Source: a virus. Taken from it: 26,217 nucleotides of DNA. Made by a program: the position numbers and the translations under genes. The notes beneath the pieces are model-generated. The model had not been told where the DNA came from. It ran no database searches and was given only the letters and a program-made list of their open reading frames with translations. The DNA is taken from IMG/VR virus record IMGVR_UViG_3300032006_000072, positions 1 to 26,217 of that record, one strand, 5' to 3'. Positions 3,096 to 20,660 of the stretch are shown one piece after another; within the stretch, counting starts at the first letter, position 1, and each line of letters starts with the position of its first letter.

Positions 3096-5020
3096 TGGCA
3101 CTAGTAAATTTCGCAAATCTGGATTTTGACCAGATAAAACTTACTTTAGAGAATTATTTAAAAGATAATTCTAATTTTACAGATTATGACTTTGAAGGAT
3201 CTAATTTGTCAACGATTTTAGATGTTTTAGCATATAATACCTATATTACCTCATATAATGCCAATATGGTTACTAATGAGGTATTCATTGATAGTGCTAC
3301 TTTAAGAGAAAATGTAGTATCTTTGGCACGAAATATTGGTTATATGCCAAGAGCTCGTAAATCTGCACAAGCAACCATTAGTTTTTTCGTAAATACCACA
3401 GGAATTATACCAAGTCCATCAACAATTACATTAAAAGCTGGTCCAGTTGTAGTATCTTCAGGAACTTTTGGTACTCAGTCTTATGTTTTTTCAATAAAAG
3501 ATGATATTACAGTACCTGTTGTTAATAATGAAGCAGATTTTGACCTACTTCCTGTTTATGAAGGTAGTGTTGTTGAAGAAACATACGTTTATAGTTCCAG
3601 AAATCCAAATCAAAGGTTCTTAATTAGCAATATTGGAGTAGATACGGCATTAATTAACGTAACTGTTGGTACAAATGCTAGTACAGAGCAACAAAAATAT
3701 GCTTTTCAGGATAGTTTATTCGATATTGATGGTGAATCTAGAGTTTTCTTCTTACAAGAGGTTGAAGATGAGCGATATGAGGTGATTTTTGGTGATGGTG
3801 TCTTTGGAAAGAAACTTTCTGAAGGTAATGTAATAACAATTAACTATATTAAGTCAAGTGGAGACAGTGGAAATGGAGTTTCTAGACTTACTTTTAATGG
3901 AAGAATGGTTTATACAAGAAGTTCTACTGAATATACGGTAACTTCTGGTATTTCGATGATTACAACTGATATTGCTTCTACTGGAGGAGAGTCAATTGAA
4001 GGTGTTGATTCAATTAAGAAGTATGCACCACGAATTTATGCTTCTCAAAACAGAGCTTTGACTGCAAATGACTATGAAACGTTAATTCCATCAAGAATTT
4101 ATCCAGAAACAGAGTCAATTTCCGTTTTTGGGGGTGAAGAACTCATTCCTGCACAATATGGTAAGGTTTTTATCAGTATTAAACCAAGAACTGGTGAATT
4201 TTTACCTAATTTGATCAAAGAAAACATAAAAAGAGACCTTAAAAAGTATGCAGTAGCAGGAATTGTACCTGAAATCCTTGATTTGAAGTATCTTTACCTT
4301 GAAGTTGATTCACATATCTATTATAACAGTAATTTTGCTTCATCTGCAGCTAATGTATCAACAATTGTTCAAAATAATGTGAATACATACGCTGATTCTA
4401 GTGAGTTAAATAAGTATGGTGCACGATTTAAGTATAGTAAATTCCTTAAGGTTATTGATGACAGTCATTCTTCAATAACATCTAATATTACAACAGTTTT
4501 AATGCGTAGAGATATTAGACCTGCTATAAATGCAATAGCTGAATATCAAATTGGTTTTGGTAATGAATTCCATATTGGTAGTTTGGATGGTTATAATATC
4601 AAATCTTCTGCATTCCAAATTGAAGGAGTTTCTGGTGATGTTTATCTATCAGATGTTCCTAATACTAATAGAGAAGATGGAACAATATTTTTATTCTCTC
4701 TTTCAAATCCACAATCAACGGATGCAAAGATTGTAAGGAGAAATGTTGGTACTGTTAATTATATTAAAGGAATTATAACAATTAATCCTATTAATATTCA
4801 GGCAACATCTAAAAAGAAAGATGGCCAAGAAGTTATTGAAATTTGTATTGCACCAAGATCAAATGATGTGATCGGATTACAGGATTTGTATTTGCAACTA
4901 GATATTAATAACAGTACATTCGATATGGTAATTGATCAGATTGCATCAGGACTTGATCCTTCAGCATCTAATTATATTGTTTCTTCCAGCTACAGTAACG
5001 GATATCTAGTAAGACCATAA
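3095..5020 (+). CDS. 6: Baseplate wedge subunit gp6 (J-like)
   Basis: A 641-residue protein, close to T4 gp6 (660). gp6 dimers form the ring that joins the six baseplate wedges and controls the hexagon-to-star switch on infection. The N-terminus (MALVNFANLDFDQIKLTLEN, then DFEGSNLSTILDVLAYNTYI) is typical of gp6 in T4-like cyanophages. The middle holds the baseplate-J-like core (YEVIFGDGVFGKKL, about 227-240, and SRIYPETESISVFGGEE, about 331-347). It is linked to gp25 by a TAATG overlap and is one nt from the giant downstream gene, so the three are one translational unit. No frameshift seen. Confidence 0.95.
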   Translation: MALVNFANLDFDQIKLTLENYLKDNSNFTDYDFEGSNLSTILDVLAYNTYITSYNANMVTNEVFIDSATLRENVVSLARNIGYMPRARKSAQATISFFVNTTGIIPSPSTITLKAGPVVVSSGTFGTQSYVFSIKDDITVPVVNNEADFDLLPVYEGSVVEETYVYSSRNPNQRFLISNIGVDTALINVTVGTNASTEQQKYAFQDSLFDIDGESRVFFLQEVEDERYEVIFGDGVFGKKLSEGNVITINYIKSSGDSGNGVSRLTFNGRMVYTRSSTEYTVTSGISMITTDIASTGGESIEGVDSIKKYAPRIYASQNRALTANDYETLIPSRIYPETESISVFGGEELIPAQYGKVFISIKPRTGEFLPNLIKENIKRDLKKYAVAGIVPEILDLKYLYLEVDSHIYYNSNFASSAANVSTIVQNNVNTYADSSELNKYGARFKYSKFLKVIDDSHSSITSNITTVLMRRDIRPAINAIAEYQIGFGNEFHIGSLDGYNIKSSAFQIEGVSGDVYLSDVPNTNREDGTIFLFSLSNPQSTDAKIVRRNVGTVNYIKGIITINPINIQATSKKKDGQEVIEICIAPRSNDVIGLQDLYLQLDINNSTFDMVIDQIASGLDPSASNYIVSSSYSNGYLVRP

Positions 5021-5021
5021 A

Positions 5022-8000
5022 ATGACACAAAGCAGAGTCCCATTAAGAACAGTTGTTAAAAATCAACTGCCACTTTACGTTATAGATGAATTTCCTCTTA
5101 TTGGTGATTTTTTATCGACTTATTATCTTTCTCAGGATTTTCAGGGTGGTCCTCTCGATTTAATACAAAATATTGATAGATATGTCAAGTTAGATAATAA
5201 TGCCAATACTATATCATCTACTATTTTATTGAATGATATCACGGCAATTGATAATACTATTATAGTTTCTAATACAAAAGGTTTTCCTGATGAATATGGA
5301 CTTATTAGAATTGATGATGAAATTATAACCTATTCTGGAAAGACTGATATTAGTTTTACAGGATGTACTCGCGGATTTGATGGAATTGCGGATGATAAAA
5401 ATCAAAATTTAGTTTTTACACAAACTTTAGCAGAGGATCATGTTGCTGATGCAACTGTAGAGAATTTAAGTGTACTTTTCTTAAAAGAATTTCTTAAAAA
5501 GACAAAAAATCAACTTCTTCCAGGCCTTGAGGATAGATCTCTTTATGCTGATTTAGATAAAAGTCTTTTTATTAAGCAAGCTAAAGATTTTTATAGTTCA
5601 AAAGGTACAAGTCAATCTTTTAAGGTTCTTTTTAAAGCATTATACGGTGTTGATGTAGAAGTATTAAAACCTAGTGAACATCTTATTTCCCCTTCAGCAC
5701 CTCTTTATAAAATTACCAATGATATGGTTGTTGAACCTATATCTGGTGATGTTCAATCAATTAGAGGATATACATTAATTCAAGATTCGTATGGTACAAC
5801 AATTGATAAGGCTTATGCTCCAATTACGAATGTTGAAAAGGTATTTGTTAGTGGTGCATCGACAGATTTCTATAGATTAAGTATTGATTCTACTTTCAGT
5901 AGTGATAAGACTTATGGTGGCGCAGAATATGGAACATTTAGTGTTCATCCCAAAACAAAGTGTATTGGAGACTATACTACAAGTTCAACAACGCTTGATG
6001 TTGACTCAACCGTAGGATTTCCAACTTCTGGCGAATTATATGTTACTTATACTGATAGAAAAGCAGGAATTGTTTCATATACATCAAAAGCATTTAACCA
6101 ATTTTATGGTTGTAGTGGTATAACTGATAATATTGCTAATAATACTGTTATTGGTATTAATACACATGCTGTTGCTACTCTTGCTGATGATACGCAAGTA
6201 AAAGTAAGAATTACATCTGTTTTGGGTGATCTTAAGTATGATCAACCAAATTATTATTATGAAAAAGATGATACTATTGAAATTAAAACTTTAGGAATTA
6301 GTACAGCTGATGTTGCGTCTAATTCTTGGATTTTTAATGCTGCAACTTCATATAAAGTAGAAACAATAACTAAAATTAATGAAACTGCCTTTAGGTATAG
6401 AGTCATTCTTGATAATGATCATATTTTTAAGGTAGGAGATACTCTTACTGTTACAACCACCGGATATAGTGGTCAATCAAAAGTTTATGGTGTCAATGGT
6501 GTAAAGAGTATTACAATTGGTGATCAAGGATCTCTGGACGAATATATTACAGATACTATTACTATAACAATTAAAAAGAATATCTTAAAAGCAAATGCAA
6601 CTAATTTTCCGTCAGCTAATAACGTAACAACTGACGTATCATCTGTTTATAAAGATAATGGTAAAGATACATTAGTAGCATCATCATCCATTCCTTTCTA
6701 TAAGGATCAAAGATTAAATGTTAAAAAGAATTTAATTACTTTTGATGGTACTTTTACTGGAGATACCTTTAAAGTCCTTACTTCTGGTGATCATGGTTTC
6801 TATACTGGAGATACTGTTTATTACACCCCACAGAAGGTTACAAGCACCGTAGAAGACGCTGATGGTAATGAGACCATACAAACAACAACATTGACTGGTA
6901 TTACTCAAGAAGGAATTTATTTTGTAAAAAGATTATCAGATACTACTTCGTTAAAATTAGCTAGAAGTAGATCAGAACTTTATACTGAGGATTATGTAAC
7001 GACGGAAGCAATTGATGTAACTGATAATACTATTGAATTTTGGAAATTTAAAGGTCAGGAATTAGAAAATCATAAGTTGCTTAGAGAAATTAGTGATCCA
7101 GAAGATGAAGGTGGATTAGTTGAAACAAAAGCAGGTCAAGCATCTGGTATTTTAATAAATGGTGTTGAGATTTTAAATTATAAGTCAGTTGACTCTATTT
7201 TCTATGGAAGAATTGAAAGTATTGATGTTGATGGTAGTGGATCGGGATATAATGTAATAAGTCCACCTGATTTTAATATTGCTGATCCAACTGGTATTGG
7301 TGCAACTGGAAATGTTGCTGTAAGAGGAACATTTAATGAGATTAGAGTTGTTGATACTGGATTTGATTATATTGGTCAACCTACAATTAAAATTAGTGGT
7401 GGAAATGGTAAAGATGCAACAGCCGATGTAATAACAAGGTTAGTAGATCATGATGTTAATTTTAATTCCGAAGAAGGCTTTGGATTGGTAAATTTAACTA
7501 CCAATACTATTGGATTTAATACATATCATAAATTTAGAGATTATGAGAAGGTAATATACAAACCAAATGGTCAAGTTCCTATTACAGGACTTTCTACAGG
7601 AGCAGCATATTATGTTGATGTTCAAAACGCAACAAGTGTAAAACTTTATAAATCAAAAGATGAAGCTGTTAATCAGATTAATGTAATAGACCTTACTGGT
7701 TATGGTGAAGGTAGACATACACTTGCTTCAGAGACTAAAAAGGCAGTTGTTAGTTCTATTCAGATTACTAATGAAGGATCTGGTTATGAAAATAAGAAAA
7801 CAGCAGTTGTTGGATTAACTACATCTTTAGATAAGATTACTGTTGAAAGGCATGGATATAATTCTGGTGAATTGGTAACTTATTCTACTGCAGGAACAAC
7901 TATTGGTGGATTGACTGATGGAAGTAATTATTATCTTACAAAAATAGATGATAATACATTTAAACTATCTGAAATAGGTCCATCTGGAAAAGAGAAGTTT

Positions 8001-11000
8001 TATTATGATACAAGACAGTATATTAATCTAACAAGTACAGGATCTGCCTTAGATACACATTATTTTAACTACCCTGCAATTTCTGTCGAATTAATTGGTA
8101 GAGTCGGTATTTCTTCTATAGGCTCTGAAACGTTTAAAGCTACTTTACAACCAATTGTTACGGGTGAAATTGTATCAGTAAACTTATCCAGTAAAGGTTC
8201 TGCATATGGTTCTTCTGAAATTCTGAATCTTTATAAAGAACCGGAAATTTCTCTTGATATTGGAGATTCTGTTCAAGTTACTCCGGTAATTGCTAATGGT
8301 ACAGTTATTGAAGTATTGGTTGATAAAAAAGGATCTAATATTACTGCACCACCATTAATTGAAATTGAAGGTGGAATAGGTTTAGTAATGACGCCAGTTA
8401 TTGAAAATAGAGAAGTTACTAAAATAAATGTTATTGAAGGTGGTTCAACATTTTTTGGAGGACAAACTAGTACTAGAATTACGTATCCTGGATCTGGTGC
8501 TGTTTTCAGAGCAAATTTGCAGAGATGGACAGTTAATCAATTTGAAAAGAATTATGGATTCATTACGGATGATGATGGATTTATTGATGATGGATTGAAT
8601 GATGATTATGGTTTACAATATGTTCATCTTTATGCACCAAGAAAATTAAGAGAAATTTTATATGCAACAGATCAATCAGGTAATAGTCTTTATAATAGTC
8701 CTGATTTGATTATTGATAATGGATCTGAAAAGGAATCAACAAAGCATTCTCCTATTATTGGATGGGCTTATGATGGAAATCCCATTTATGGTCCATATGG
8801 ATATTCCAAAGTTGATGGAGGTGTTATTACACAAATGCTTTCTGGATATCAATTTGGAAATCCAGAAAATAGACCATCAATTAATACTTACAAGTCAGGA
8901 TTCTTTGTAGAAGATTATGTTCATATTCCTTCCTCAAGTGAATCTGTTCTTGATGAAAATAATGGAAGATTTTGTGTAACACCAGAATTTCCAAAAGGAA
9001 CATATGCTTATTTTGCTACTATTGATTCTGCACTTCCTGACTCTAGTGGAGTGTTCGTTAATTTTAAACGTCCAATCTTCCCATATTTGATTGGAGATAA
9101 GTTTCACTCAAAACCAAATAAGTTTAACTTTACAAAGAATTCCAATCAGGATGAATATGATATTCAAAATAGTCAATGGTTAAGAAATACTCATGTATAT
9201 AATTTCCTAAGTCCAACAAAATCATATGAGTATTTGGATCTTCCATATAAAATGAAGAAGACTCAAATATCTGATGTTGCTTTTGCAACTCCAGGAAGAA
9301 TCGATTCTGTTGGAATTATTACTGGCGGAACCAATTATAAAGTAGATGACAATGTTATTATTAATAATGAAGGAACAGGTGGATTTGGTGCTGATATAAA
9401 AGTATCTAAAGTTGGTGGTAAGGCTGTTACTTCTATTAGTTGTGCAACGACTTCTATTAATTTAATTGAAGTAGTACCTACGAAGAAAAGTGGTCAATAT
9501 GCTTTCTATGCTCCAACTCCACATAATTTTAAAAATGCTGAAATAATTTCCATTGCTGGTTTAAGTACAACAGCCGCAAAACTTTCTGGAGATTATAGTA
9601 TTGGTATTACCACGTCTGTTCATGTTTTAACTGCTGGTGTAGGAACTACTGGTGCAACAGGAATAGTTACATATTTTTCAATTTATGGAGATTTAAATTC
9701 TGATCTTATTAAACCAAATAATGTTTTAACTGTTGGTATAGGAACAACTGCTGAAAAAGTTAAGGTTCTGAATATTGATAAGGTATCTAATAGATTAAGA
9801 GTCTTAAGAGCAGTAGAAGGAACTACTGCTGTTGCACAAACTGCAACAAGTATTCTTTATGAAGATCAAAGGAAATTTACAACTACTGTTGGTTATAAGA
9901 CTTCCTTTAATTTCCAACTTAATAGAGAACTTTATTTTAATCCAGTTGATACACTTGGAATAGGAACACTTTCTGGTGTAGGTGTTGGTTATACAATAAC
10001 ATTTACAAATCCAGGAGCTGGTATTACTAATAAATTTGTCCCAACACAAACACTTTATTTACCGGAGCATGAGTTAAGGACAAATGATGAATTGATTTAT
10101 AATTTAAATGATGGAACTGCTATTGGTGTTTCAACTAATGGATCTGCTCCTTTAACTTTAAGTGATCAGCAAAAACTTTATGTTGCAAAAGTAAATGATA
10201 ATCTTATTGGTCTTTCTACTGTAAGAGTTGGAATGGCATCAACTGGTGTATTTGCTGGCATTGGTTCAACAGCAGCATCTTTAGGATTATTGTATTTTAC
10301 TAGTGTTGGAACAGGCGATAATCACAGTCTTAAGACCAATTATGGTAATGTAATTACTGTATCAGCTTATAAGAATACAGTAACTGTAACTACTGCAGAA
10401 ACTCATAGTCTTGGTGTTTCTGATAATGTGTATATTGATGCAAAACCATCCATTTCAGTTATCAAGACAGTTTCGTATAATGATGAAAATAGAAGAATTG
10501 TAATTGATAAGAGAACTATTGCAGCCAGTGATATAAATGTAACAACCAATGAAGTTACCGTATCAGATCATAGATTTGAATTGGGTCAAAAGTTAATTTA
10601 CAATTCAGGAACTCCTTCTGGTGGTCTTACGAATGAAAAATTCTATTATGCAGTAATTGTTAATAAAGATACGATTAAATTATCTGAATCTTATTATGAT
10701 GCAACAAGTGCTGTACCTACAATTGTTGATATTACAAGTGCCACAGGTGGATTCTTATCTCCAGTAAATCCACCAATTAAACTTTATAAAGATGCTCCGG
10801 TTGTCTTTAATCTTTCAGATTCTTCATTGGTTTATACAAAAAATGCTATTCAATATCCAGCATTTACATTTGAATTTTTTGAAGATGAGGATCAAGAGAG
10901 AATATTTGATAAAACAGAAGAATCGTCTACTTTTGAAGTAATTAAATCAGGAACAATTGGTGTTGATGGTCAAGTTACTTTAGTTGTTGATTCTACTCTT

Positions 11001-14000
11001 CCCAAACAACTTTATTATAATCTGGTTCCAATTTCAACTGATCAACTTCCAATTGAAAAGCTTCAAATTAGTATTGATGATGAAGTAAAGGCAAATAATG
11101 AGATAGAAATTGTAGATAGTGTATACAGTGGAAAACAGACTATTTCAATTGGTGCAACAAATACATTTACATATTTTATTTCAGAAGTTCCTGAAAGTTC
11201 TTCATATACTCAAAGTAATGCCAATATTAAGTATTCTACAGATTCTTCTTCTGGAATTGGATCCATTGTTGATTTAAAAATTTATAATAGAGGTAATAAT
11301 TATTATAAGTTACCACAAGTTACTGGGGCAGCTAAGAAAACTACGATAAATGATCCTACGGTTGGAATTGGTTCAAATGCCGTTCTTACGATTCAAAGTG
11401 ATAGTATTGGTATTATTAAAAGGACTAAATTAAAAGATGTTGGGTTTGATTATCCTTCTGATAATACTTTGAGACCCACTGCTAAACTTGCTGAAATAAT
11501 TAAAATTGATAATTTAGCTATTTTTGAATCTATTGGAATTACCTCTGCTGGTCGAGGATATGGTCCTACACCTAAAATCATTGTTTTTGATGGTCAAAGT
11601 GGTGAGCAAATGATTGAAGTTGATTTGCTTTTTGAAAAAGGTGCTAGAAATCTTAAAGTTCTTAAGAATACCTATGGAATTAATGATGTAGAACCAAGAT
11701 TACTTCCTATTAATAACTCTAATGGTGTAGGAATTCAAACTATTGGATTTAATACTACTACTCAAGATGCAACTATTACATTATCTACTGGATTTAGTAC
11801 AGTAACTTCATTCCCATTTTCTATTGGTGATGAGATCATGATTGAAAATGTTAGTGTTGGTATTGCATCAACAGCAGCAAATGGTGATGTTGTAACTGTG
11901 GATACGGGAAGAGGATATAATACAAATCTTTATAATTATCAATTATTCACAGTAACTGGTGTTGAAGAGAATTATGGTGGTGTTGGTTTTGTAACCTTTA
12001 GTATGAGCAATTTCTTAGGATCTGGTGAAATTCCTGGAACTTTTAATGCTCAAAGATCTTCTGGTAGAATTATAGCTAAAAAAGATTTCCCTATATTTGA
12101 TCCTGTACTTACAACAACTCATTTCTTAAAAGGTGAAGGTGTCATATCTTTAGATGATAATACTGTAACTGGAACTGTTGAAAGATGGGATAGTGATACT
12201 GGATATCTTAAAGTTCAAACAAATAAAGATTTTGTTGTTGGTCATGTAATTGAAGGAACTTCTTCAAAAACTAGAGGAAGAGTATCTGGAACTAAGAGTT
12301 TTACTGCCACTTATGATCTTGAAGCTAAATCGAAAGTTGAATCTGGATGGGAAGAAAAAACAGGATTCTTAAATTTAAATAGTCAAGTTATTCAAGATGG
12401 TGATTACTATCAGAAATTCTCATATGCATTGAAATCTACTATTGATATGGCAAAATGGGATGATGTAGTAAGTGCATTAAACCATACAGCAGGGTTTAAG
12501 AAGTTTTCTAATTTACAAGTTGAATCAATAGCTACTAATGATGCAGTTGTTGGTGTTGGATCTACTTTAAGTACTCTGGATCTTGTTGCTGATCTTTATG
12601 ATGTTGTTGATACGAATTGTGTTTATAATTTTGATTTAGCTACAGAGAATAATAAGAATAATACACTTTCTGATCAAGTTGTTCTTCAGAGTCAGATATT
12701 AACAGATTATTCTGAATCTATTGGCAATAGAGTTCTTTCTATTGATGATTTTAGTTCAGAATTTAATAGTAACCCAAGAGCAACAAGATATAGTAATATT
12801 GCACGATTTACAAACCTTGATGCAAATGCTCATAAGTATATAACTTATGTTCAAGATCGTAGATATACATATGAGCGTCAAATGATGATTTTGACTCTTT
12901 TACATGATGATGCTGGATTTGGTTATATGAACCAATATGCCAGACTTGATACTGTATCTGATTTAGGATCTTTTGATTATGGTCTTGATGGACTTGATGG
13001 TGTTATTCAATTCCTCCCAACAAAATATCAAGTAAATGACTATAATGTCTTTACTTTATCTTATAATATTAATGATTTAGTACTAGGAACTGGAACTTCT
13101 GATTTTGGTGGAGTCAGGATAGCTACAGCAAGTACTGCAGTTGCTACAGGAGTTGGAACTGGTTCAACCACTCGTTTTGTAAGTATTGCTAATACCTATA
13201 CATCAGGAAAAGTTCTATTTGAATTTAAGACAACTTCTGGAGATTATGAATTTAATGAGTTAACTTTTGTGCATGATGGAACCACAGTAGATTTACAAGA
13301 ATATGGTAGATTAACTAACTTAAATGAACTTGATGATGCTGCATCTGGTTTAGGAACTTATCATCCTTATATTTCAGGTAGCAATGTTGTAATTGATTTT
13401 ATTCCTAACGTTTCTACTGCTGCTTCTATTAATGCAATAACAGTTGGTATGGGCAATACTGCTGGAATTGGTTCTTTTGCCTTTAATCATGCATTGGTTG
13501 GTAGTGAGTATTGGAATATTGCAGCATCTGGTTCTCCAACAGCACATTCAGTAGGAGAATATCCAGATCGTTATGATGGTGCTTATATTATTGCTCAGGC
13601 TACTGATACAACTAATAATGTTACAGTAATTTCTGAAATAATGTTATGTGATACTGGTACTGATGTTCACATGACTGAGTGGGGAGATCTTAGAGTTGGT
13701 GCTACTGGTAGTTTTGTTGGTGTTGGAACATTTGGTGCTACTTATAACTCTACTACTGGTTTAACAGCATTGAAGTTTACTCCAAATGCTAGCATAGATG
13801 TAGAAGTAAGAACATTCTACAATTACATGCGTTTTGAAGATGATATTGGAGCTGCTGAGAATCCAATTACATTAGACTTCACTAATGCTTGGATGGATTC
13901 ACAGTATGGTGCATATCAAGGAACTGAAGTTGATGTTAAGAGAGCATTTAATTTAACTCATGAAACATATCAGATTTTTGAAAGGTATTTTGATGGATCA

Positions 14001-17000
14001 GACGGAACTGTTATTGGAACTCAAGGAGAAAATCCAGTTCTAACTGATTTGGTCCTTTATTTGGATGGACAAACTATTACTGGTATTACTACTTGGAGTG
14101 ATTCTAGTACTGAAGGTAATAATGCAGCATTAACGAATATATATGGTTGGCAAAATGGAGATGACGGTGAAACATTAGCATATATTTTTGAAAATGGGTC
14201 TTATGGTAATATTACTGATAGTACTGATTGGGATTTCAGTGGAGATTTCTCACTTGAAGTTTGGGCTAAGATGACAGCCGCTCCTGTTGGTTATTCTACT
14301 GCTTCTGCTTTAATTAGTAGTTGGGATACAGCAGGTAGTTCTGATAATAAGTTTATTCTTGGTGTTAATTCTGATTATGAGGTAGTACTTCAGTTAAATG
14401 GTGAGGCTAATACATTTACTAATGCACCTGCCAATATACAACTGGATAAGTGGCATCATATTGTGGTCAGTAGAATTGGTACTGAACTTGATATGTATTT
14501 GGATGGATCAAAAGGTGGAGTTACTGCAACCTATGCTGATGCAATCGCACCAACTTTAGATATAAGAGTTGGTAATTATGTTGGACTTTCTACAGTATCC
14601 TTTAATGGGCAAATAGGAGTAGTAAGAGCATATAAAGGTAAAGGATTGGATCTGTCTGAAGTTGAGAGGAATTTTGTTACACAGAGAGGAAGATTCTATC
14701 CCGAATTTGCAACTGCTATACCAGATGTACCATTTTCAGTTGATATTCCCAATCACTTCTTTGTCACTGGTGAGGAATTAACATATTCAAATCCAGGAGC
14801 TGGAACTACTCAAAATATTGGAATTGTAACTGCCACAGTACCTAGTATTGGATCTACTGATAAGTTACCAAGTTCTGTTTTTGTTGTTAAGGTTGATTCT
14901 AATAGAATTAAACTTGCATCAACTGCTGAAAATGCTTTAAAAGTTATTCCAGAGATACTTGAAATTAATAAAGTTGGAATTGGTACTACTCATACATTTA
15001 CAGCAAAGAATCAAAATGAAAAGATTATAGTTGCATTGGATAATTATCTTCAATCTCCTATTGTTGGAACATCTGTAACAACTTCTCTAACACAAGCAGC
15101 TTTAGATACTGAAGATATTGTGCATTTGGTGGGAATTACATCAATTTCTGGTAATGATTTGATTAAGATTGGTGATGAGGTTATGAAGGTTCAGGCAGTT
15201 GGAGTAGGAACTTATACAGAGGCATTAAGAGTTCAGAGACCATGGTTAGGAACTGTAGCTGTTGGTCATGATACTGGCGCACAAGTTCAGAAAATTTCTG
15301 GAAATTATAATGTTGTTAATAATTTCCTCAATTTTGTTGAAGCACCTTATGGTGGTATTCCAGAGTCTTCACCTACAAATGCGCCATATGATAGAGATTG
15401 GGTTGGAATTACTACCAGTTCTGTTTTCCAAGGAAGATCTTTTATGAGATCTGGAACTCCTGGTGGTTCTAATGAGACATATAGTAAGAACTATCTATTT
15501 GATGATATTTCAGATGACTTTAATGGTCTTGAAACTACATTTACTTTAAAGCAAGATTCTGCGAATATTACTGGAATTGAGAATGAAAATGCTGTTATAT
15601 TGGTTAATGATATCTTCCAGATTCCAGGAATTGCTAATGATTATACGATGAATGAACAAGCTGGAATTACTTCAGCAATCTTTAGTGATTCTTATGGTCA
15701 GGCAGTTCTTGGTGCTGATGTTAATAAATCAAACCTTCCAATTGGTGGTGTAATCGTTACGGTAGGATCTTCTGAAGGAAGCGCTTATCAACCTCTCATA
15801 GGTGCTGGAGCAACGATAACCGTTGGTTCAGGTGGAACGATATCTGCAATCACAATTGGCAGCACTGGGTCCGGTTATAGAGCAGATTACAACTATGAAA
15901 TTCTAACGGACGTTACTACAGCAATTCCTGCTTCATCGAATATTATTACTCTTGATAACAAGAATAGTGTATTTGGAAAACTTCAATTACTTGGTTATGG
16001 TAGTACTTGTACAATTGGAATTGGTACATATATCAAACCAACGAATATTACTTCTATAGGTACAACATCAATAACAATTGGAGTTTCAAGTGCAAGTGCA
16101 TATGAAATTGCTGCTGGTACTGCTGTCTTGATTAAGATTATTGCTCCACAAGTTGGCGTTGCAAATATTGGTATTGTAACAGGAACTGATCCATCTAATG
16201 ATAATGTTATCACACATATTGGATTTACTACTGTTAAAGATGGTTTTGTTTCAACAGCATGTTCTATAACCAATACAGATACTGGATTCTCTACAACCAA
16301 AACATATGAAGCGGTAGTTGATAGTCCTCTTTCTTATTCTAGTGTTCCTTTAATTTATCAAACAGATGGCGTATCGACACCAGTAGGAGTTGGAACTGAA
16401 GGTAAGGTTGATATTTTTGTTAGTGCAACTACGAAGGTTTCTGATTTCACTCTTGTAAATACTGGATATGGTTATAAACCAAATGAGAATCTTACTGTTC
16501 CTACAGGTGGTATTACTGGAATTCCAACTGATGCAACAGCATCGAAGTTGGAGAGATTCACTTTAACTCTTGAAAAGACATTTACTGATAAATTTGCTGG
16601 ATGGGCTATTGGTCAACTTCAACCTCTTGATGATATTAGTGATCAATTTGATGGAACAACTACAGATTTCCAATTAAGAGTTAATAGTGTAGTTACTTCC
16701 ATTAAAGCATCCAAAGGATCGAGTATTAATATTCAAGATGTTTTACTTGTATTCTATAATAATATTTTACAGGTTCCCGGTGAAGGATATACATTCCCTG
16801 GTGGCAGTACGATTATTTTTGGAGAGGCTCCTAAGTCTGGTGATAAAGTAAGTATTATCTTCTATAAAGGAAGCGGTGGTCTTGATGTTGTTGATGTTGA
16901 TGTTCTTGAAACTGTAAAAGCAGGTGATACTTTACAACTTAATAATGATCCGTCACAGGGTCAAAAAGAGGTTTTACAAGAAGATTCAAGAATTGCGATG

Positions 17001-18206
17001 AGTATAGATTCTACTGATGTAGTATCAACTAATCCATATTTTGGTCCTGGAAATGTTAATAATATTAATCTGAAGCGTCCAATGAATTGGTGCAGACAGA
17101 CTGAAGATATGATTCTTAATGGTAAGAGAGTTGCTAAAGATCGTGCTTTATATGAGGCATCTATCTATCCAAATACTAATGTTATTCAAACTGTTGGTGT
17201 TGGATCTACTACCATCTATGTTGAAAGTGTAAGACCACTCTTTAATGCTCAAAATGAAAATGATATTTCACTATCATTCCAAAAAGAGATAGTTCTTGTT
17301 TCTCAAGATAGGAGAGTTGCTGCTTCTGCTACGGCTACTGTATCTGCTGGCAATACAATTTCTGCAGTTACACTTACTGATGGTGGTGTTGGTTATTCTA
17401 CTAATCCTGTTGTAATTCTCGGAAATCCAGTTGGTGTTGGAACTACCAACAGAGCAACTGCTAGAGCATATATCAGTAATGCAGGTATAGTTACAGGTAT
17501 CACAATGACTGGACCTGGAACTGGATATACTTCTGTACCACAGGTCTTAATGACACCTCCTCCTGTTTTGGATGAGAGAGTCAGTTCTGGAGTAGAATAT
17601 AGTGGTGATTTTGGATTGATTGTTGGTGTTGGAACAACGGCTGTAACTGGGATTGCATCTACAGCACTTATATTTGAATTATTGATTCCAGAAAATTCTA
17701 TTATGAGAGATACAGTTATTACTGGAACTGCAGTTACTATAAGTGGTATAAGTACAAATGATTATTTTGTCTATAGAGAATCTAATATTGGTAATCCGGT
17801 AACATCTTTGGATGCTAGTGGAACTGTTGTTGGAGTAGGAACAACTTCTCTTGATAACGTTTATAAAGCATTAAAAGCTGAAACTGTTAAAGAATTTGTT
17901 TATGGTGTTGGAGATGTATTCCTTAGAAAAATTACTGTTGGCGTAACCACTTATAATGGATACGTTTTTGGAAAAACTGATACTTTTGATAGTATGGTTC
18001 AAACTTTTGATTCTACAACTACTTCTTTTGATAATTTTGTCTTCCGTAATTATTATGGAGTTTATAGTTGGGGTAGGATTGATTGTGATGCAAGAACAGC
18101 AACACAAGAGTTCCCATTCTATAATCAAAATGGAGTAACTGGAATTTCAACTTCTGCATATGTCAGAAGATATGTACCTTTAAAATATAGAGACTATCTC
18201 GCTTAA
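5022..18206 (+). CDS. Giant modular baseplate/tail structural protein with YHYH-like and LamG domains (4394 aa)
   Basis: A single uninterrupted frame of 4394 residues, very roughly 470 kDa, in the position T4 uses for gp7 (1032 aa). Residues about 1-225 form an N-terminal assembly region (LPLYVIDEFPLIGDFL; KGTSQSFKVLFKALYG at 194-209) of a type common at the start of large marine myovirus tail proteins. Next come two FP..G..I modules (78-121, 322-367), many GSGY-type beta modules, a YHYH-like domain (about 1198-1357, GWAYDGNPIYGPYGY at 1247-1261), a triplicated beta module (about 2616-2935), a LamG/concanavalin-like domain (3009-3225), a RPWLGT module (about 3382-3445) and two DDISD modules (from 3494 and 3870). 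The C-terminus ends YYGVYSWGRIDCDAR...RDYLA. VG(I/V)GTT turns recur throughout. It likely forms an extended chain at the baseplate rim. Identity with gp7 is positional inference only. Confidence 0.93.
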   Translation: MTQSRVPLRTVVKNQLPLYVIDEFPLIGDFLSTYYLSQDFQGGPLDLIQNIDRYVKLDNNANTISSTILLNDITAIDNTIIVSNTKGFPDEYGLIRIDDEIITYSGKTDISFTGCTRGFDGIADDKNQNLVFTQTLAEDHVADATVENLSVLFLKEFLKKTKNQLLPGLEDRSLYADLDKSLFIKQAKDFYSSKGTSQSFKVLFKALYGVDVEVLKPSEHLISPSAPLYKITNDMVVEPISGDVQSIRGYTLIQDSYGTTIDKAYAPITNVEKVFVSGASTDFYRLSIDSTFSSDKTYGGAEYGTFSVHPKTKCIGDYTTSSTTLDVDSTVGFPTSGELYVTYTDRKAGIVSYTSKAFNQFYGCSGITDNIANNTVIGINTHAVATLADDTQVKVRITSVLGDLKYDQPNYYYEKDDTIEIKTLGISTADVASNSWIFNAATSYKVETITKINETAFRYRVILDNDHIFKVGDTLTVTTTGYSGQSKVYGVNGVKSITIGDQGSLDEYITDTITITIKKNILKANATNFPSANNVTTDVSSVYKDNGKDTLVASSSIPFYKDQRLNVKKNLITFDGTFTGDTFKVLTSGDHGFYTGDTVYYTPQKVTSTVEDADGNETIQTTTLTGITQEGIYFVKRLSDTTSLKLARSRSELYTEDYVTTEAIDVTDNTIEFWKFKGQELENHKLLREISDPEDEGGLVETKAGQASGILINGVEILNYKSVDSIFYGRIESIDVDGSGSGYNVISPPDFNIADPTGIGATGNVAVRGTFNEIRVVDTGFDYIGQPTIKISGGNGKDATADVITRLVDHDVNFNSEEGFGLVNLTTNTIGFNTYHKFRDYEKVIYKPNGQVPITGLSTGAAYYVDVQNATSVKLYKSKDEAVNQINVIDLTGYGEGRHTLASETKKAVVSSIQITNEGSGYENKKTAVVGLTTSLDKITVERHGYNSGELVTYSTAGTTIGGLTDGSNYYLTKIDDNTFKLSEIGPSGKEKFYYDTRQYINLTSTGSALDTHYFNYPAISVELIGRVGISSIGSETFKATLQPIVTGEIVSVNLSSKGSAYGSSEILNLYKEPEISLDIGDSVQVTPVIANGTVIEVLVDKKGSNITAPPLIEIEGGIGLVMTPVIENREVTKINVIEGGSTFFGGQTSTRITYPGSGAVFRANLQRWTVNQFEKNYGFITDDDGFIDDGLNDDYGLQYVHLYAPRKLREILYATDQSGNSLYNSPDLIIDNGSEKESTKHSPIIGWAYDGNPIYGPYGYSKVDGGVITQMLSGYQFGNPENRPSINTYKSGFFVEDYVHIPSSSESVLDENNGRFCVTPEFPKGTYAYFATIDSALPDSSGVFVNFKRPIFPYLIGDKFHSKPNKFNFTKNSNQDEYDIQNSQWLRNTHVYNFLSPTKSYEYLDLPYKMKKTQISDVAFATPGRIDSVGIITGGTNYKVDDNVIINNEGTGGFGADIKVSKVGGKAVTSISCATTSINLIEVVPTKKSGQYAFYAPTPHNFKNAEIISIAGLSTTAAKLSGDYSIGITTSVHVLTAGVGTTGATGIVTYFSIYGDLNSDLIKPNNVLTVGIGTTAEKVKVLNIDKVSNRLRVLRAVEGTTAVAQTATSILYEDQRKFTTTVGYKTSFNFQLNRELYFNPVDTLGIGTLSGVGVGYTITFTNPGAGITNKFVPTQTLYLPEHELRTNDELIYNLNDGTAIGVSTNGSAPLTLSDQQKLYVAKVNDNLIGLSTVRVGMASTGVFAGIGSTAASLGLLYFTSVGTGDNHSLKTNYGNVITVSAYKNTVTVTTAETHSLGVSDNVYIDAKPSISVIKTVSYNDENRRIVIDKRTIAASDINVTTNEVTVSDHRFELGQKLIYNSGTPSGGLTNEKFYYAVIVNKDTIKLSESYYDATSAVPTIVDITSATGGFLSPVNPPIKLYKDAPVVFNLSDSSLVYTKNAIQYPAFTFEFFEDEDQERIFDKTEESSTFEVIKSGTIGVDGQVTLVVDSTLPKQLYYNLVPISTDQLPIEKLQISIDDEVKANNEIEIVDSVYSGKQTISIGATNTFTYFISEVPESSSYTQSNANIKYSTDSSSGIGSIVDLKIYNRGNNYYKLPQVTGAAKKTTINDPTVGIGSNAVLTIQSDSIGIIKRTKLKDVGFDYPSDNTLRPTAKLAEIIKIDNLAIFESIGITSAGRGYGPTPKIIVFDGQSGEQMIEVDLLFEKGARNLKVLKNTYGINDVEPRLLPINNSNGVGIQTIGFNTTTQDATITLSTGFSTVTSFPFSIGDEIMIENVSVGIASTAANGDVVTVDTGRGYNTNLYNYQLFTVTGVEENYGGVGFVTFSMSNFLGSGEIPGTFNAQRSSGRIIAKKDFPIFDPVLTTTHFLKGEGVISLDDNTVTGTVERWDSDTGYLKVQTNKDFVVGHVIEGTSSKTRGRVSGTKSFTATYDLEAKSKVESGWEEKTGFLNLNSQVIQDGDYYQKFSYALKSTIDMAKWDDVVSALNHTAGFKKFSNLQVESIATNDAVVGVGSTLSTLDLVADLYDVVDTNCVYNFDLATENNKNNTLSDQVVLQSQILTDYSESIGNRVLSIDDFSSEFNSNPRATRYSNIARFTNLDANAHKYITYVQDRRYTYERQMMILTLLHDDAGFGYMNQYARLDTVSDLGSFDYGLDGLDGVIQFLPTKYQVNDYNVFTLSYNINDLVLGTGTSDFGGVRIATASTAVATGVGTGSTTRFVSIANTYTSGKVLFEFKTTSGDYEFNELTFVHDGTTVDLQEYGRLTNLNELDDAASGLGTYHPYISGSNVVIDFIPNVSTAASINAITVGMGNTAGIGSFAFNHALVGSEYWNIAASGSPTAHSVGEYPDRYDGAYIIAQATDTTNNVTVISEIMLCDTGTDVHMTEWGDLRVGATGSFVGVGTFGATYNSTTGLTALKFTPNASIDVEVRTFYNYMRFEDDIGAAENPITLDFTNAWMDSQYGAYQGTEVDVKRAFNLTHETYQIFERYFDGSDGTVIGTQGENPVLTDLVLYLDGQTITGITTWSDSSTEGNNAALTNIYGWQNGDDGETLAYIFENGSYGNITDSTDWDFSGDFSLEVWAKMTAAPVGYSTASALISSWDTAGSSDNKFILGVNSDYEVVLQLNGEANTFTNAPANIQLDKWHHIVVSRIGTELDMYLDGSKGGVTATYADAIAPTLDIRVGNYVGLSTVSFNGQIGVVRAYKGKGLDLSEVERNFVTQRGRFYPEFATAIPDVPFSVDIPNHFFVTGEELTYSNPGAGTTQNIGIVTATVPSIGSTDKLPSSVFVVKVDSNRIKLASTAENALKVIPEILEINKVGIGTTHTFTAKNQNEKIIVALDNYLQSPIVGTSVTTSLTQAALDTEDIVHLVGITSISGNDLIKIGDEVMKVQAVGVGTYTEALRVQRPWLGTVAVGHDTGAQVQKISGNYNVVNNFLNFVEAPYGGIPESSPTNAPYDRDWVGITTSSVFQGRSFMRSGTPGGSNETYSKNYLFDDISDDFNGLETTFTLKQDSANITGIENENAVILVNDIFQIPGIANDYTMNEQAGITSAIFSDSYGQAVLGADVNKSNLPIGGVIVTVGSSEGSAYQPLIGAGATITVGSGGTISAITIGSTGSGYRADYNYEILTDVTTAIPASSNIITLDNKNSVFGKLQLLGYGSTCTIGIGTYIKPTNITSIGTTSITIGVSSASAYEIAAGTAVLIKIIAPQVGVANIGIVTGTDPSNDNVITHIGFTTVKDGFVSTACSITNTDTGFSTTKTYEAVVDSPLSYSSVPLIYQTDGVSTPVGVGTEGKVDIFVSATTKVSDFTLVNTGYGYKPNENLTVPTGGITGIPTDATASKLERFTLTLEKTFTDKFAGWAIGQLQPLDDISDQFDGTTTDFQLRVNSVVTSIKASKGSSINIQDVLLVFYNNILQVPGEGYTFPGGSTIIFGEAPKSGDKVSIIFYKGSGGLDVVDVDVLETVKAGDTLQLNNDPSQGQKEVLQEDSRIAMSIDSTDVVSTNPYFGPGNVNNINLKRPMNWCRQTEDMILNGKRVAKDRALYEASIYPNTNVIQTVGVGSTTIYVESVRPLFNAQNENDISLSFQKEIVLVSQDRRVAASATATVSAGNTISAVTLTDGGVGYSTNPVVILGNPVGVGTTNRATARAYISNAGIVTGITMTGPGTGYTSVPQVLMTPPPVLDERVSSGVEYSGDFGLIVGVGTTAVTGIASTALIFELLIPENSIMRDTVITGTAVTISGISTNDYFVYRESNIGNPVTSLDASGTVVGVGTTSLDNVYKALKAETVKEFVYGVGDVFLRKITVGVTTYNGYVFGKTDTFDSMVQTFDSTTTSFDNFVFRNYYGVYSWGRIDCDARTATQEFPFYNQNGVTGISTSAYVRRYVPLKYRDYLA
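8613..9095 (+). other. YHYH-like domain inside the giant protein
   Basis: Residues about 1198-1357 of the giant protein carry the hallmarks of the YHYH domain family: DGNPIYGPYGY (1251-1261), an LDENNGRF segment, and FPYLIGDKF (from 1353). At the place where the family is named for Tyr-His-Tyr-His, this protein reads YAYF (1328-1331), so both histidines are missing. Confidence 0.8.
12868..13830 (+). repeat. Three tandem related beta modules in the giant protein
   Basis: Three segments share one pattern. Copy 1 is residues about 2616-2685 (LTLLHDDAGFGYMNQYARLD), copy 2 about 2733-2807 (LTFVHDGTTVDLQEYGRLTN), copy 3 about 2862-2935 (IMLCDTGTDVHMTEWGDLRV). Each continues into a GSFD / GLGTY / VGTFG turn and an I.F.P strand (VIQFLP, VIDFIP, ALKFTP). 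The DNA has diverged, so the duplication is old. Confidence 0.6.
14046..14696 (+). other. LamG / concanavalin A-like domain inside the giant protein
   Basis: Residues about 3009-3225 begin with LVLYLDGQ, contain DFSGDFSLEVWAKM and the typical WHHIVVSR strand (W3144), and end with a strand followed by ERNFVTQRGRF. This matches the LamG-type jelly-roll fold that often binds sugars. Surface carbohydrate binding is a reasonable inference from the fold, not shown by any residue here. Confidence 0.8.
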
Positions 18207-18240: not shown

Positions 18241-19143
18241 ATGGCAAAGTTAGGAATAAATACGGGATCTGCCGCTAATGACGGAACAGGTGATGGCCTG
18301 CGAGTTGGTGGTGGAAAAATTAACACCAACTTTGATGAGGTTTATTCTTCTATTGGTGATGGTACTACATTAAGAATTGGTACGGGAAGTACATGTGCTA
18401 TTACCATGGCAGAACCTTCTGCTAGTGGAGAATCATTTGTTGGAATTGGTAGCACAATTCCTTCTTATATGTTAGATGTAAGAGGTGGAATAGGTGCTAC
18501 AAATATTAGTATAAGTGGTATTGCTACTGTTGTGGATCTTCGTGGTGTAACTGCCATAGATGCCACTACAACAGCAACCATTGAAGCTGCAACAGCAGCA
18601 ATGCCTAATCAATTTGAATATATTAATGTTACCGGAATGGGTACCATTAATAATCTGAGTGTATCAGGTGTTTCTACTCTTGGTATTGCAACAGCAACAA
18701 ATTTTAGTGTATCTGGTGTTACTACATTTAATCAGGATGTACAATTCCCTGGTGATTCATATAATGTTCTATGGGATCAAGCAACAAGTAAATTTAAGTT
18801 TGATGATTCTGCTAAATGTGTATTTGGCAGTGCATCTGGTGGAGATTTGTTGATATACCATACTGGTGGTAATAGCACTATAAAAAATGAAACAGGTGAA
18901 TTTAGAATTGTTGGTAATGATCTAAGATTACAAACTCAAGATGGTAGTGAAGATTATCTTTTAGCTGTTGATGGTGGATCTGTATCCATATTTTATGATG
19001 ATGGCAAGAAATTAGAAACTACTGGTGGAGGTGTAGATGTTACAGGAATTGTAACTGCTACTAGTTTTGCTGGTTCAGGATCTGCACTTACTGGTATAGA
19101 GGCAGGTTTAGATGCCTTCTCTGCTGGCATGTTTAGCATGTAA
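18241..19143 (+). CDS. Tail fibre protein, cyanophage type (300 aa)
   Basis: The N-terminus (GINTGSAANDGTGDGLRVGG, then KINTNFDEVYSSIGDG, residues about 5-41) is a virion-attachment segment widely seen at the start of cyanophage tail fibres. The middle has repeating SGVSTLGIATATNFSVSGVT units (about 141-160). A DLLIYHTGGNSTI...FRIVGNDLRL...VSIFYDDGKKLETTGGG block (about 202-264) is another common phrase in these fibres. The C-terminus is VTATSFAGSGSALTGIEAG. At 300 residues it is short for a complete long fibre and could be one segment of a multi-gene fibre. It has its own late promoter and lies between the giant gene and gp8, which are neighbours as gp7-gp8 in T4. Confidence 0.85.
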   Translation: MAKLGINTGSAANDGTGDGLRVGGGKINTNFDEVYSSIGDGTTLRIGTGSTCAITMAEPSASGESFVGIGSTIPSYMLDVRGGIGATNISISGIATVVDLRGVTAIDATTTATIEAATAAMPNQFEYINVTGMGTINNLSVSGVSTLGIATATNFSVSGVTTFNQDVQFPGDSYNVLWDQATSKFKFDDSAKCVFGSASGGDLLIYHTGGNSTIKNETGEFRIVGNDLRLQTQDGSEDYLLAVDGGSVSIFYDDGKKLETTGGGVDVTGIVTATSFAGSGSALTGIEAGLDAFSAGMFSM

Positions 19144-19149
19144 TAAATA
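19142..19149 (+). promoter_or_regulatory. Late promoter motif before the adhesin pair
   Basis: AATAAATA, followed by ACTAAAAA, overlaps the stop codon of the fibre gene and lies 18 nt before the next ATG. The 16-nt string AATAAATAACTAAAAA is repeated exactly at 20666. It differs from TATAAATA only at the first base. Confidence 0.65.
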
Positions 19150-19167
19150 ACTAAAAACTATAAACTA

Positions 19168-19551
19168 ATGGCACTACAGAAGACTAGATTACAAGATATC
19201 ATTAAAATCACAGGAGTAGCTAATCAGGCTGTTGGTCTTGTTACTGGTGGAGTATCTCCAACTCCTGTTGGAATTGCTTCTACCTGTTATGTCAAAAGTG
19301 TGGTGATGCATAATCCAACTTCTTTTGCTTCTACGATTTCTTTGTATTATGAAGCGGCTACTAGTCCCGCATCAAATCCTCCAGCTGAAGCAGATCAGTT
19401 TTATCATCAAACACTTGCTGCTAATGAGACTCAAATTTTAGAACTTAATTATCCATTGGTTTTTACGCATAATGATACATTAAGTGCTGTTGTTGGAATT
19501 GCGTCAACTGCAAATATTATGGTTCTTGGGGATATTGAGAGGACCGTTTAA
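19168..19551 (+). CDS. Small virion structural protein (127 aa)
   Basis: The 127 residues begin MALQKTRLQDIIKITGVANQ, an opening I associate with small structural proteins near cyanophage fibre genes. The rest alternates short hydrophobic strands (YVKSVVMHNP, ASTISLYYEA, ETQILELNYPLVF, NIMVLGDIERTV) and reads like a compact beta sandwich. Two VGIAST turns echo the VGIAST/VGIGTT turns of the giant protein. The stop overlaps the start of the glycine-rich gene (TAATG at 19549-19553), so the two are likely made in step and may interact, for example as a fibre adaptor and its tip. Function inferred from context only. Confidence 0.75.
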   Translation: MALQKTRLQDIIKITGVANQAVGLVTGGVSPTPVGIASTCYVKSVVMHNPTSFASTISLYYEAATSPASNPPAEADQFYHQTLAANETQILELNYPLVFTHNDTLSAVVGIASTANIMVLGDIERTV

Positions 19552-20660
19552 TGGGAATTAGATCCACATTAGGTAAAAATTTAAGTAGTTTTTTAAGTGT
19601 TAATAATACTTCTGATATTGGTACTACAGCAGATAATGTTCTTCCAATATTAGCAAGTGGTGGTACAGGAATTACAACCACAGGTAAGGATGGAAAAGTT
19701 ACTAATTATCATGTATTTACAGAACCAGGTCATTTTCGTTTAGGTCCTGCAGCAGTAGGAACTGGAAAAACTTTTACTGTTTTAGTTGTTGCTGGTGGTG
19801 GTTCTGGTGGTGGTTCATATTATGGTGGCGGTGGTGGTGCTGGTGAAGTTGTTTATGGTCCTGCAGTTACATTTGATCTTTCCAATGGATATGAATATAA
19901 AGTAGACGTTGGTGAAGGAGGAGCGGCTGTAATTTGTGATCAAGTTAATGGTGAGATGTTTATGGGTATGAATGGTGGTGATTCTAGATTTTACCCTACA
20001 CTTAATTACACACCCAGTAGACTTAATGATAGAACTATAGGTATAGTAACAAATTACCAATCTAATGTTGGATTAGCATCCACTGGTGTTATAGCTCTTG
20101 GTGGTGGCGGTGGCGGTGGTTCTAGTCCTGTTAGTCACACGTATGGAAGTCACGGTGGTTCTGGAGGAGGAAGTTCATATTATTCTACACAACAGACTGC
20201 TCCATCAAGATATACTAAGACAGGTGGTAGAGGATATAACCACCAATACGTTTATAGAGGAAGTGGTTCCGATCCTGGAGGAAGTGTTTGTCATGGTGGC
20301 GGTGGTGCCGGTTCTGTAGGTTCTGATGGAGCTGGTGGTATTGGACATCCCTTCGATTGTTTTGGCGATTTATATGTTGCTCCTGCTATTCCTGCTCCCG
20401 TACGACCTTATTGGATTCCTGAAGTAAGCCCTGGGGGTATATATGGTGGTGGAGGTGGGGGTGCTGAGTATGGAAATCCTGAGCGTGGAGAAGGTGGAGC
20501 TGGTGGCGGTGGCAATGGTGGTGATCCAAGCATGCCTGGAATACCTGGAACTGATTATACTGGTGGCGGTGGCGGTGGCGTTCAAAATGTTAACCAAGAT
20601 GGTGGCGCTGGTGGTAAAGGAATAGTCATCATAAAATATATCAATCCTTCATCACAATAA
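19551..20660 (+). CDS. Glycine-rich adhesin-like fibre protein (369 aa)
   Basis: Residues 1-78 are ordinary. TFTVLVVAGGGSGGGSYYGG then opens a series of glycine clusters at about 82-99, 184-192, 247-267, 300-325 and 342-359, separated by variable segments rich in Y, P and S. The protein ends GGAGGKGIVIIKYINPSSQ, a cap common in glycine-rich phage fibre proteins. Clustered GGGGG runs between variable loops recall the gp38 tip adhesins of some T-even phages, where packed polyglycine helices display host-binding loops. That fold is inference here; overall similarity to gp38 was not tested. It is coupled to the 127-residue gene by a TAATG overlap. GGC/GGT codon runs make this gene richer in G than its neighbours. 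Confidence 0.78.
   Translation: MGIRSTLGKNLSSFLSVNNTSDIGTTADNVLPILASGGTGITTTGKDGKVTNYHVFTEPGHFRLGPAAVGTGKTFTVLVVAGGGSGGGSYYGGGGGAGEVVYGPAVTFDLSNGYEYKVDVGEGGAAVICDQVNGEMFMGMNGGDSRFYPTLNYTPSRLNDRTIGIVTNYQSNVGLASTGVIALGGGGGGGSSPVSHTYGSHGGSGGGSSYYSTQQTAPSRYTKTGGRGYNHQYVYRGSGSDPGGSVCHGGGGAGSVGSDGAGGIGHPFDCFGDLYVAPAIPAPVRPYWIPEVSPGGIYGGGGGGAEYGNPERGEGGAGGGGNGGDPSMPGIPGTDYTGGGGGGVQNVNQDGGAGGKGIVIIKYINPSSQ
20102..20119 (+). repeat. 18-nt glycine-codon direct repeat (second copy at 20561-20578)
   Basis: TGGTGGCGGTGGCGGTGG occurs exactly at 20102-20119 and again at 20561-20578 in the glycine-rich gene, 459 nt apart start to start. Related shorter runs lie near 19824, 20294 and 20501. The spacing is a multiple of three, so recombination between the copies would keep the reading frame. 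Confidence 0.85.

Follow-up and report, generated by a model that had tools for sequence, protein, structure and literature searches.

A giant protein encoded behind gp25 and gp6 in a cyanophage contig is probably a gp7 with its wedge core divided by a long insert

We analyzed a whole virus contig of 26,217 bases (IMG/VR record IMGVR_UViG_3300032006_000072), referred to here as the window. On its plus strand, an open reading frame (ORF) at 5022-18206 begins with ATG and continues for 4394 amino acids (aa) without an internal stop. We consider its product, hereafter the giant, to be probably (a chance of roughly three in four) the gp7 of a T4-like cyanophage baseplate, with a split wedge core and two giant arms, at least one of which would serve for host contact. 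The ORF starts two bases past the end of gp6, and the gene order in the window is gp25, gp6, the giant, a gp9/10-N-like gene, a gene for a 127-aa protein, a gene for a Gly-rich protein, gp8 and a gene for a DUF4815 protein, the last being truncated by the contig end. The giant therefore lies directly 3′ of the gp25-gp6 pair and upstream of gp8, with three small genes intervening before gp8, and the intact frame of 4394 residues that a sequence-only reading of this DNA had placed at the gp7 position was confirmed. Because the window is a genome fragment, genome-wide checks for gp7 rest on relatives. The features of the locus are as follows.

2691-3095, plus strand: gp25 (PF04965, 2.3e-16)
3095-5020, plus strand: gp6, the predicted wedge partner (PF21379, 1.8e-15, and PF21387)
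5022-5696, plus strand: core A, the helical gp7 wedge core, giant residues 1-225, with the motif DFYSSKGTSQSFKVLF at 189 (PF23786, hhalign and PDB profile search)
5220-5465, plus strand: beta module within core A, residues 67-148 (repeat hidden Markov model (HMM) V_GFP at 67-121; AlphaFold2 (AF2) strands at 66-148 between helices 57-62 and 149-165)
5703-6230, plus strand: part resembling T4 domain V, residues 228-403; a further V module lies at 312-366 (VIA-align to T4 gp7; V-module HMM)
6231-12311, plus strand: internal insert, residues 404-2430, with GxGY modules and the YHYH domain (profile and module matches)
8697-9029, plus strand: YHYH domain, residues 1226-1336 (PF14240, 8.8e-24, 85 bits against a cut-off of 25, profile positions 79-184 of 193)
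12312-12560, plus strand: core B, residues 2431-2513, with an HTAGF motif (in 43 of 43 long relatives; hhalign to Moby-type gp7)
12561-14015, plus strand: residues 2514-2998, up to the end of the first gp7 gene in S-SSM7 and Sf-FS3 (comparison with the split genes)
14016-14744, plus strand: laminin-G-type cassette, residues 2999-3241, 243 residues (PF13385)
14745-18203, plus strand: C-terminal extension, residues 3242-4394 (in S-SSM7 and Sf-FS3, the conserved part belongs to another protein)
18241-19143, plus strand: gp9/10-N-like connector of 300 aa (PF07880, 2.9e-6)
20692-22248, plus strand: gp8 (PF09215, 4e-14), with one GxGY module at residues 209-269

The first 333 aa of the giant matched 470 of 50,697 phage records by tblastn, 457 of which carry Synechococcus, Prochlorococcus or Cyanophage in their names, and its C-terminal 494 aa matched 94 records in the same collection. 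The ratio of non-synonymous to synonymous divergence (dN/dS) was below 1 in all 36 bins (up to 400 codons each) obtained with six relatives that jointly cover the protein; dN/dS and dS were calculated with the experimental NG86 module of Biopython, and two of the six relatives (L126 and L132) are almost identical in sequence. Because of the 470 matching records and of dN/dS below 1 in every bin, the open frame is not a product of chance, and the giant is a real gene under purifying selection.

Core A carries the homology to gp7. In hhalign, giant residues 181-288 aligned with T4 gp7 725-813 (probability 96.1, E 2.9e-9), and the core A score was 77.7, whereas 30 column shuffles of the T4-like profile did not exceed 22.9 and none of ten other T4 proteins scored above 20.6. 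A core A profile searched against 177,635 PDB sequences found T4 gp7 (2.1e-5) and phage KP1 gp7 (9e-5), the next best match being at 0.17. The helical core with the DFYxxKG motif is common to the giant and T4 gp7. In addition, PF23786 Baseplate_wedge matched giant residues 9-220 (3.6e-7, 30.4 bits against a cut-off of 27), in support of the 'assembly-type N-terminus' of the sequence-only reading; in a six-frame search this model gave matches in 11 of 17 genomes, none of them above its cut-off, so that it is a weak finder. We take the profile comparisons to show that the giant carries a gp7 core, with core A homologous to that of gp7.

In the AF2 model of residues 1-403, the run of helices is interrupted by the beta module at 67-148, similar to the model of a Moby-type gp7. 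VIA-align placed residues 228-403 of this model onto domain V of T4 gp7 (763-844) with Z 9.1 and a root mean square deviation (rmsd) of 2.0 over 82 aligned residues; the other rows with Z 8-11 in the same listing were chains from phage virions, tails and tailspikes, for the most part matched on V modules. Like the giant, T4 gp7 (1032 aa, Straboviridae) follows gp6 and has the helical core (T4 726-758) and the domain V fold, and its HPVGF stretch (864-889) is the probable counterpart of core B; about 640 residues before the T4 core, and domain VI, have no match in the giant. As a separate observation, core A itself is broken by ∼460 residues in P-SSM4 (L008), S-RIM2 (L120) and S-MbCM100 (L124) (A at ∼1-120 and 574-830), with GxGY modules in the case of P-SSM4.

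The other half of the core lies far downstream. BLASTP of giants against short gp7-place proteins gave two separate colinear matches, and in hhalign core B aligned with residues 365-440 of Moby-type gp7 (probability 96.3, E 1.5e-9). Core B was present in each of 43 long proteins, downstream of core A in the same chain except at the three split loci included, where the ORF that follows encodes it. This set comprised 31 IMG/VR ORFs longer than 2600 aa (from 80 loci), nine named giants and, from L017, L018 and L020, the second ORF. The gp7-place proteins of Moby (503 aa), pf16 (523 aa) and phiM12 (1007 aa) have core A followed by core B, as in the giant, and in Moby and phiM12 GxGY modules lie between the two cores, as they do in the giant. 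However, the insert in these three proteins is only ∼200-800 residues, far shorter than that of the giant, and fewer than 100 residues follow B. The DFY motif and core B are separated by 102 residues in T4 and by 265 in Moby, but by 2227 in the giant. Since the domain V fit ends at residue 403, the insert is taken to extend from the end of the domain-V-like part to core B. The two core halves, residues 1-403 (core A and the domain-V-like part) and 2431-2513 (core B), are ∼2030 residues apart, and ∼1880 residues follow B. In our view these alignments show the order from A to B and the insertion sites, with a gp7 core that is present but split by the giant insert.

The model of the 503-aa Moby-type gp7 provides a further comparison. 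Only two PDB chains matched it at E ⩽ 0.001, chains of 5iv5 and 9f4a, which by length and residue range are T4 and KP1 gp7. A second-look aligner placed model residues 72-431 on T4 gp7 713-890 with Z 8.3 and rmsd 10.8, a deviation meaning that the individual domains fit, but their arrangement does not; lower in the list, a P1 baseplate chain of 190 residues was aligned with residues 2-434 (Z 4.9, rmsd 9.3).

Several results weigh against the assignment of the giant to gp7. Both AF2 models were mediocre: for giant residues 1-403 the mean pLDDT was 66.7 and the pTM 0.36, with the first 62 residues largely below 50, and for Moby gp7 the values were 66.8 and 0.47, with core B largely below 50. Foldseek gave no match at E ⩽ 0.001 for the 1-403 model and no gp7 among the 50 matches listed; for this model the fit to gp7 came from VIA-align alone. 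The T4-specific Pfam gp7 models PF21427, PF21456 and PF21428 (domain V, domain VI and helical) all matched T4, and none was found in the giant at E 0.1. The giant is accordingly not filed under T4-type (Straboviridae) gp7, and the domain V fold is recognized by structure only. Core B aligned only weakly with T4 gp7 864-889 in hhalign (probability 13.7), with a score of 31.9 where 30 shuffles gave no more than 22.7, and its profile found nothing in PDB sequences and nothing in a scan of the T4 genome; when a small set was searched with filters off, the core B model reached T4 gp7 850-889 at 7e-4. As the direct link of core B to T4 is weak, it rests on the bridge through the short gp7s and on the order. 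Single-sequence searches of PDB by phmmer found no gp7 with pf16 gp7, gp7 only at E 0.04-0.07 with Moby gp7, and only a weak pentraxin match (E 0.19) with the whole giant; NCBIfam profiles gave no match in the giant.

T4 gp7 has been stated to be absent from cyano- and pelagimyophages, seemingly substituted by VrlC (PMC7029224). On that account these phages would lack gp7, VrlC (the DUF4815 protein here) would replace it, and the giant would be an accessory structural protein. A VrlC/DUF4815 gene does follow gp8, and T4 gp7 as a single query matched only 7 of 16 cyanophage genomes; however, all seven matches were in the giant, at T4 720-808. The core A family profile was found in 18 of 18 non-T4 genomes, as was core B, every match of which was in a gp7-place ORF and none in VrlC. 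Seventeen of these 18 genomes had cores A and B together in a single ORF; in S-B43 both cores occurred in two ORFs, each preceded by a separate gp25-gp6 pair. The A profile also matched six further ORFs weakly (E 5e-5 to 1e-3), but only with its beta-module parts. The search for a gp7 homologue encoded elsewhere, which the sequence-only reading had counted as evidence against its proposal, thus did not refute it in the genomes of relatives. We regard replacement by VrlC as highly improbable, and by these profile searches the statement of a missing gp7 is contradicted for the cyanophages tested. In S-B43 (L153 122000-147000; L125), the two gp7s are 4337 and 2162 aa, representing a real double set or a record that mixes two phages.

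The assignment agrees with labels given to relatives. Many family members are called gp7 or 'baseplate wedge initiator' in GenBank, and others 'structural' or 'hypothetical protein'; PHROG 2885 is labeled 'baseplate wedge subunit', and the giant scored 3446 bits against phrog_2885, for which there is no curated cut-off. The roles of such proteins, said by the sequence-only reading to be essentially undescribed, do have these labels, although no description was found among open-licence papers. The Kyanoviridae 'gp7 baseplate wedge initiator' (phrog_2885) of S-SM2 (4156 aa) and Bellamy (4067 aa) resembles the giant in locus and in the order of core A, YHYH region, core B and C-terminal region, with 44-45% identity across ∼3060 alignment columns; unlike the giant, this type lacks the laminin-G cassette and has 8 residues at the junction instead. 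Other cyanophage proteins in the place after gp6 are 1454 aa in S-CRM01, 1937 in S-CREM2, 3048 in S-PM2, 3495 in ACG-2014e, 5195 in P-SSM2, 6064 in S-MbCM100, 6378 in S-RIM2 and 7312 in P-SSM4, and methylophage Melnitz-3 has a protein of 896 aa there. The size of the giant is therefore ordinary for its family, in which the cyanophage proteins examined span 1454-7312 aa. Among the 80 IMG/VR loci, the gp7 ORF reaches the end of the available sequence in 74, so that lengths there are lower bounds.

Some relatives carry the parts of the giant as separate genes. In 6 of the 80 IMG/VR loci (L017-L022), the domain-V-like part is the last homologous part of the first ORF: homology ends at residue 403 or 404, a new tail of ∼100 residues (complete in L017) closes the ORF, and homology restarts at 399 or 402 in a later ORF. 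Several of these six loci are near-identical, and they therefore represent perhaps three kinds. The count left out S-SKS1 (L123), in which the gp7 region lies in several ORFs, some without annotated genes, which may reflect either a sequencing error or genuine splitting. The second ORF of L017 has AAGG five bases upstream of its ATG, and the first protein (L017:5261-6772) ends in the tail YYGPFHVHRGRKMVG..HDYIYDT and a Gly-rich end. Similar sequence is present in the gp5 hub proteins of S-SSM7, S-SCSM1 and P-TIM68 (in S-SSM7 within the last 150 residues of gp5); as judged by these matches, the tail is a domain that has passed between proteins of the hub and the wedge. In S-SSM7 and Sf-FS3, a first protein of 3007 and 2995 aa, respectively, has core A, the YHYH region and core B and matches the first part of the giant; it is followed by a protein of ∼340 aa (gp9-like by name in S-SSM7) and then by a protein of 3001 and 2492 aa, respectively, with the C-terminal region. 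Parts that the giant holds in one chain are on separate proteins in these two phages.

The sequence-only reading described the giant as if a wedge protein and a side fiber had been fused. This idea has natural unfused counterparts in relatives whose gene is divided past residue 403 or in the region of residue 3000, but the giant is not a simple N-terminal wedge domain joined to a fiber, as the other half of the core is located at 2431-2513. The same separate genes would suit a polyprotein that is cleaved after synthesis into gp7 and one or two fiber proteins. Nothing positive stands against such cleavage: gp122 of S-CREM2, a 1937-aa homolog in which we found both cores, has been detected in the virion by 91 unique peptides with 27.2% coverage (PMC10665884), a figure that does not tell where along the chain the peptides lie. 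We rate cleavage as improbable.

Within the giant, the 64-position GxGY module was matched 11 times, a 51-position module four times and a 55-position module twice, and each of the three had no match in five shuffled copies of the database. The beta modules proposed earlier are thus present, but 'long arrays' overstated them, as they are spread along the protein. The GxGY module also occurs in gp8 and in Moby gp7 (219-320). This region of the Moby model superposes on domain I of the T4 sheath protein gp18 (Z 7.9, rmsd 2.7, 74 residues), and PF22639 matches it weakly (3.6e-5, below cut-off). From the modeled fold, the GxGY beta module common to gp7 and gp8 may serve T4-like virions generally as a decoration module. 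Its presence in gp8 and its resemblance to a part of the virion would also fit arms that are purely architectural, forming a second baseplate layer or ring, with the laminin-G domain binding another virion protein; indeed, a two-layered baseplate has been predicted for these phages (PMC7029224).

The insert also contains the YHYH domain, a type described as a predicted metal-dependent hydrolase with three histidines and one aspartate (PMC7824862). On this basis, the arm could be mainly a hydrolase that opens the host wall. Residues H1242, D1251, D1298 and D1311 were invariant in 43 of 43 rows; however, H1242 was the single invariant histidine in this comparison, and at the Y-A-Y of 1328-1330 the middle Ala was found in 41 of the 43 rows. 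Because of the one invariant histidine and the Y-A-Y, hydrolase activity is doubtful in the giant, and a mainly hydrolytic arm appears quite improbable.

The laminin-G-type cassette is the most divergent part of the giant when compared with L126/L132 and L127. Laminin_G_3 (PF13385) matched the giant at 3e-14 (53.9 bits against a cut-off of 27.6) and was also present in L126 and L127. The 'sugar-binding-type folds' of the sequence-only reading hold for this domain, but not for YHYH, which has no known sugar binding. Among 58 sequences with both flanks, the junction was 8 residues long in 47, 13 in four and 243-255 in seven; the seven are the giant and its nearest kin, and all three examined had Laminin_G_3. 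These 58 include the window and repeats (L087 copies Bellamy, and the cassettes of L126/L132 and of L130/L131 are identical), and sequences that did not have both flanks were left out, among them P-SSM2, P-TIM68, P-HM2, P-SSM4, S-PM2, S-T4, ACG-2014f, S-SSM7 and Sf-FS3. The junction coincides with the end of the first protein of S-SSM7 and Sf-FS3, near residue 3000. A laminin-G domain is also present after core B in P-SSM4, within residues 2501-7312, the part given to Pfam.

Between the giant and L126, aa identity was 44% in residues 3021-3210, compared with 95% before and 92% after; dS was 0.69 in the cassette against 0.20 and 0.16 in the preceding and following flanks, and dN/dS was 0.12 before, 0.73 in the cassette and 0.31 after. 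With L127, identity was 48% in the cassette and 82% and 79% in the flanks. The raised dS points to exchange by recombination and not to point selection alone. The cassette is probably an exchanged, lectin-like domain, and its predicted contact is most likely with host surface glycans. Its absence from most relatives weighs against our proposal and fits architecture-only arms; host contact through the cassette is therefore not general. On the other hand, the cassette is the fastest-diverging part and looks exchanged, as parts in contact with the host would, and we consider arms of a purely architectural kind rather unlikely. Elsewhere in the C-terminal extension, the last 495 residues showed no similarity in hhalign to T4 gp7, gp8, gp9, gp10, gp11, gp12 or wac (probabilities below 1%).

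Some differences were also seen around the giant. The three genes between gp7 and gp8 in the window (18241-20660; gp9/10-N-like, 127 aa and Gly-rich) are missing from S-SM2 and Bellamy, and P-TIM68 has a large gp9-like connector in this interval. Upstream of gp25 (1297-2076), the window encodes a 259-aa phrog_1574 protein that is weakly glycosyltransferase-like (phrog_34859, 1.1e-5).

A known system suggests how the parts of the giant could work together. In Vibrio phage XM1, gp17 (242 aa) is described as the T4 gp7 ortholog, with domain I in two pieces (1-79 and 107-133), and holds twelve tail spikes, six at the loop 80-106 and six at the C-terminus 201-242 (PMC10457771). The internal loop and C-terminus of XM1 gp17 presumably correspond to the insert and extension sites of the giant, but the spike of XM1 is a separate protein, whereas the arms of the giant are built in. 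By analogy, residues 1-403 and core B would jointly form the conserved wedge core of gp7 and, as inferred from T4 and XM1, would pair with two copies of gp6. The ∼2030 residues between the cores and the ∼1880 after B would be two long arms, leaving the core at the presumed XM1 spike sites, one of which is a loop within domain I and the other the C-terminus. At least the second arm would bear the exchangeable laminin-G-type domain touching host surface glycans, and arm force or binding would pass from gp7 through gp6 to gp25, the sheath initiator (PMC10457771), and to the sheath. The position of the giant in the virion, the packing of A and B, the geometry of the arms, the receptor contact and the signal passing are all expectations of this kind.

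Two published findings favor this reading. One is the presence of the S-CREM2 homolog with both cores in the virion (PMC10665884); the other is that S-PM2d081, a 3048-aa 'hypothetical' protein, had an early and later non-synonymous mutations in replicated host co-culture (PMC9910659). By number and length it is S-PM2p081 (L007:2573-11719), which has cores A and B, and on these grounds it is the gp7 of S-PM2. Reports of 41 proteins in the S-SM1 virion (PMC3037559) and of mutated tail and baseplate genes in S-TIM4 (PMC6224464) add no evidence on gp7.

A split core, together with a second extension that carries an exchangeable sugar-binding-type domain, implies that a baseplate part may also touch the host. 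It is possible, although we put this forward tentatively and at less than even odds, that the wedge protein is itself the receptor-binding apparatus: the arms would have grown from the two spike points of an ancestral gp7, each could bud off as a gene, and the lectin cassette at the junction would be swapped between close relatives, changing host recognition. Placement of the giant as gp7 gives exact predictions, namely that residues 1-403 and 2431-2513 would lie in one wedge and that the arms would leave at the XM1 spike sites. It also makes a small lectin-like cassette amenable to testing, and gives an identity to the very large 'hypothetical' protein S-PM2d081.

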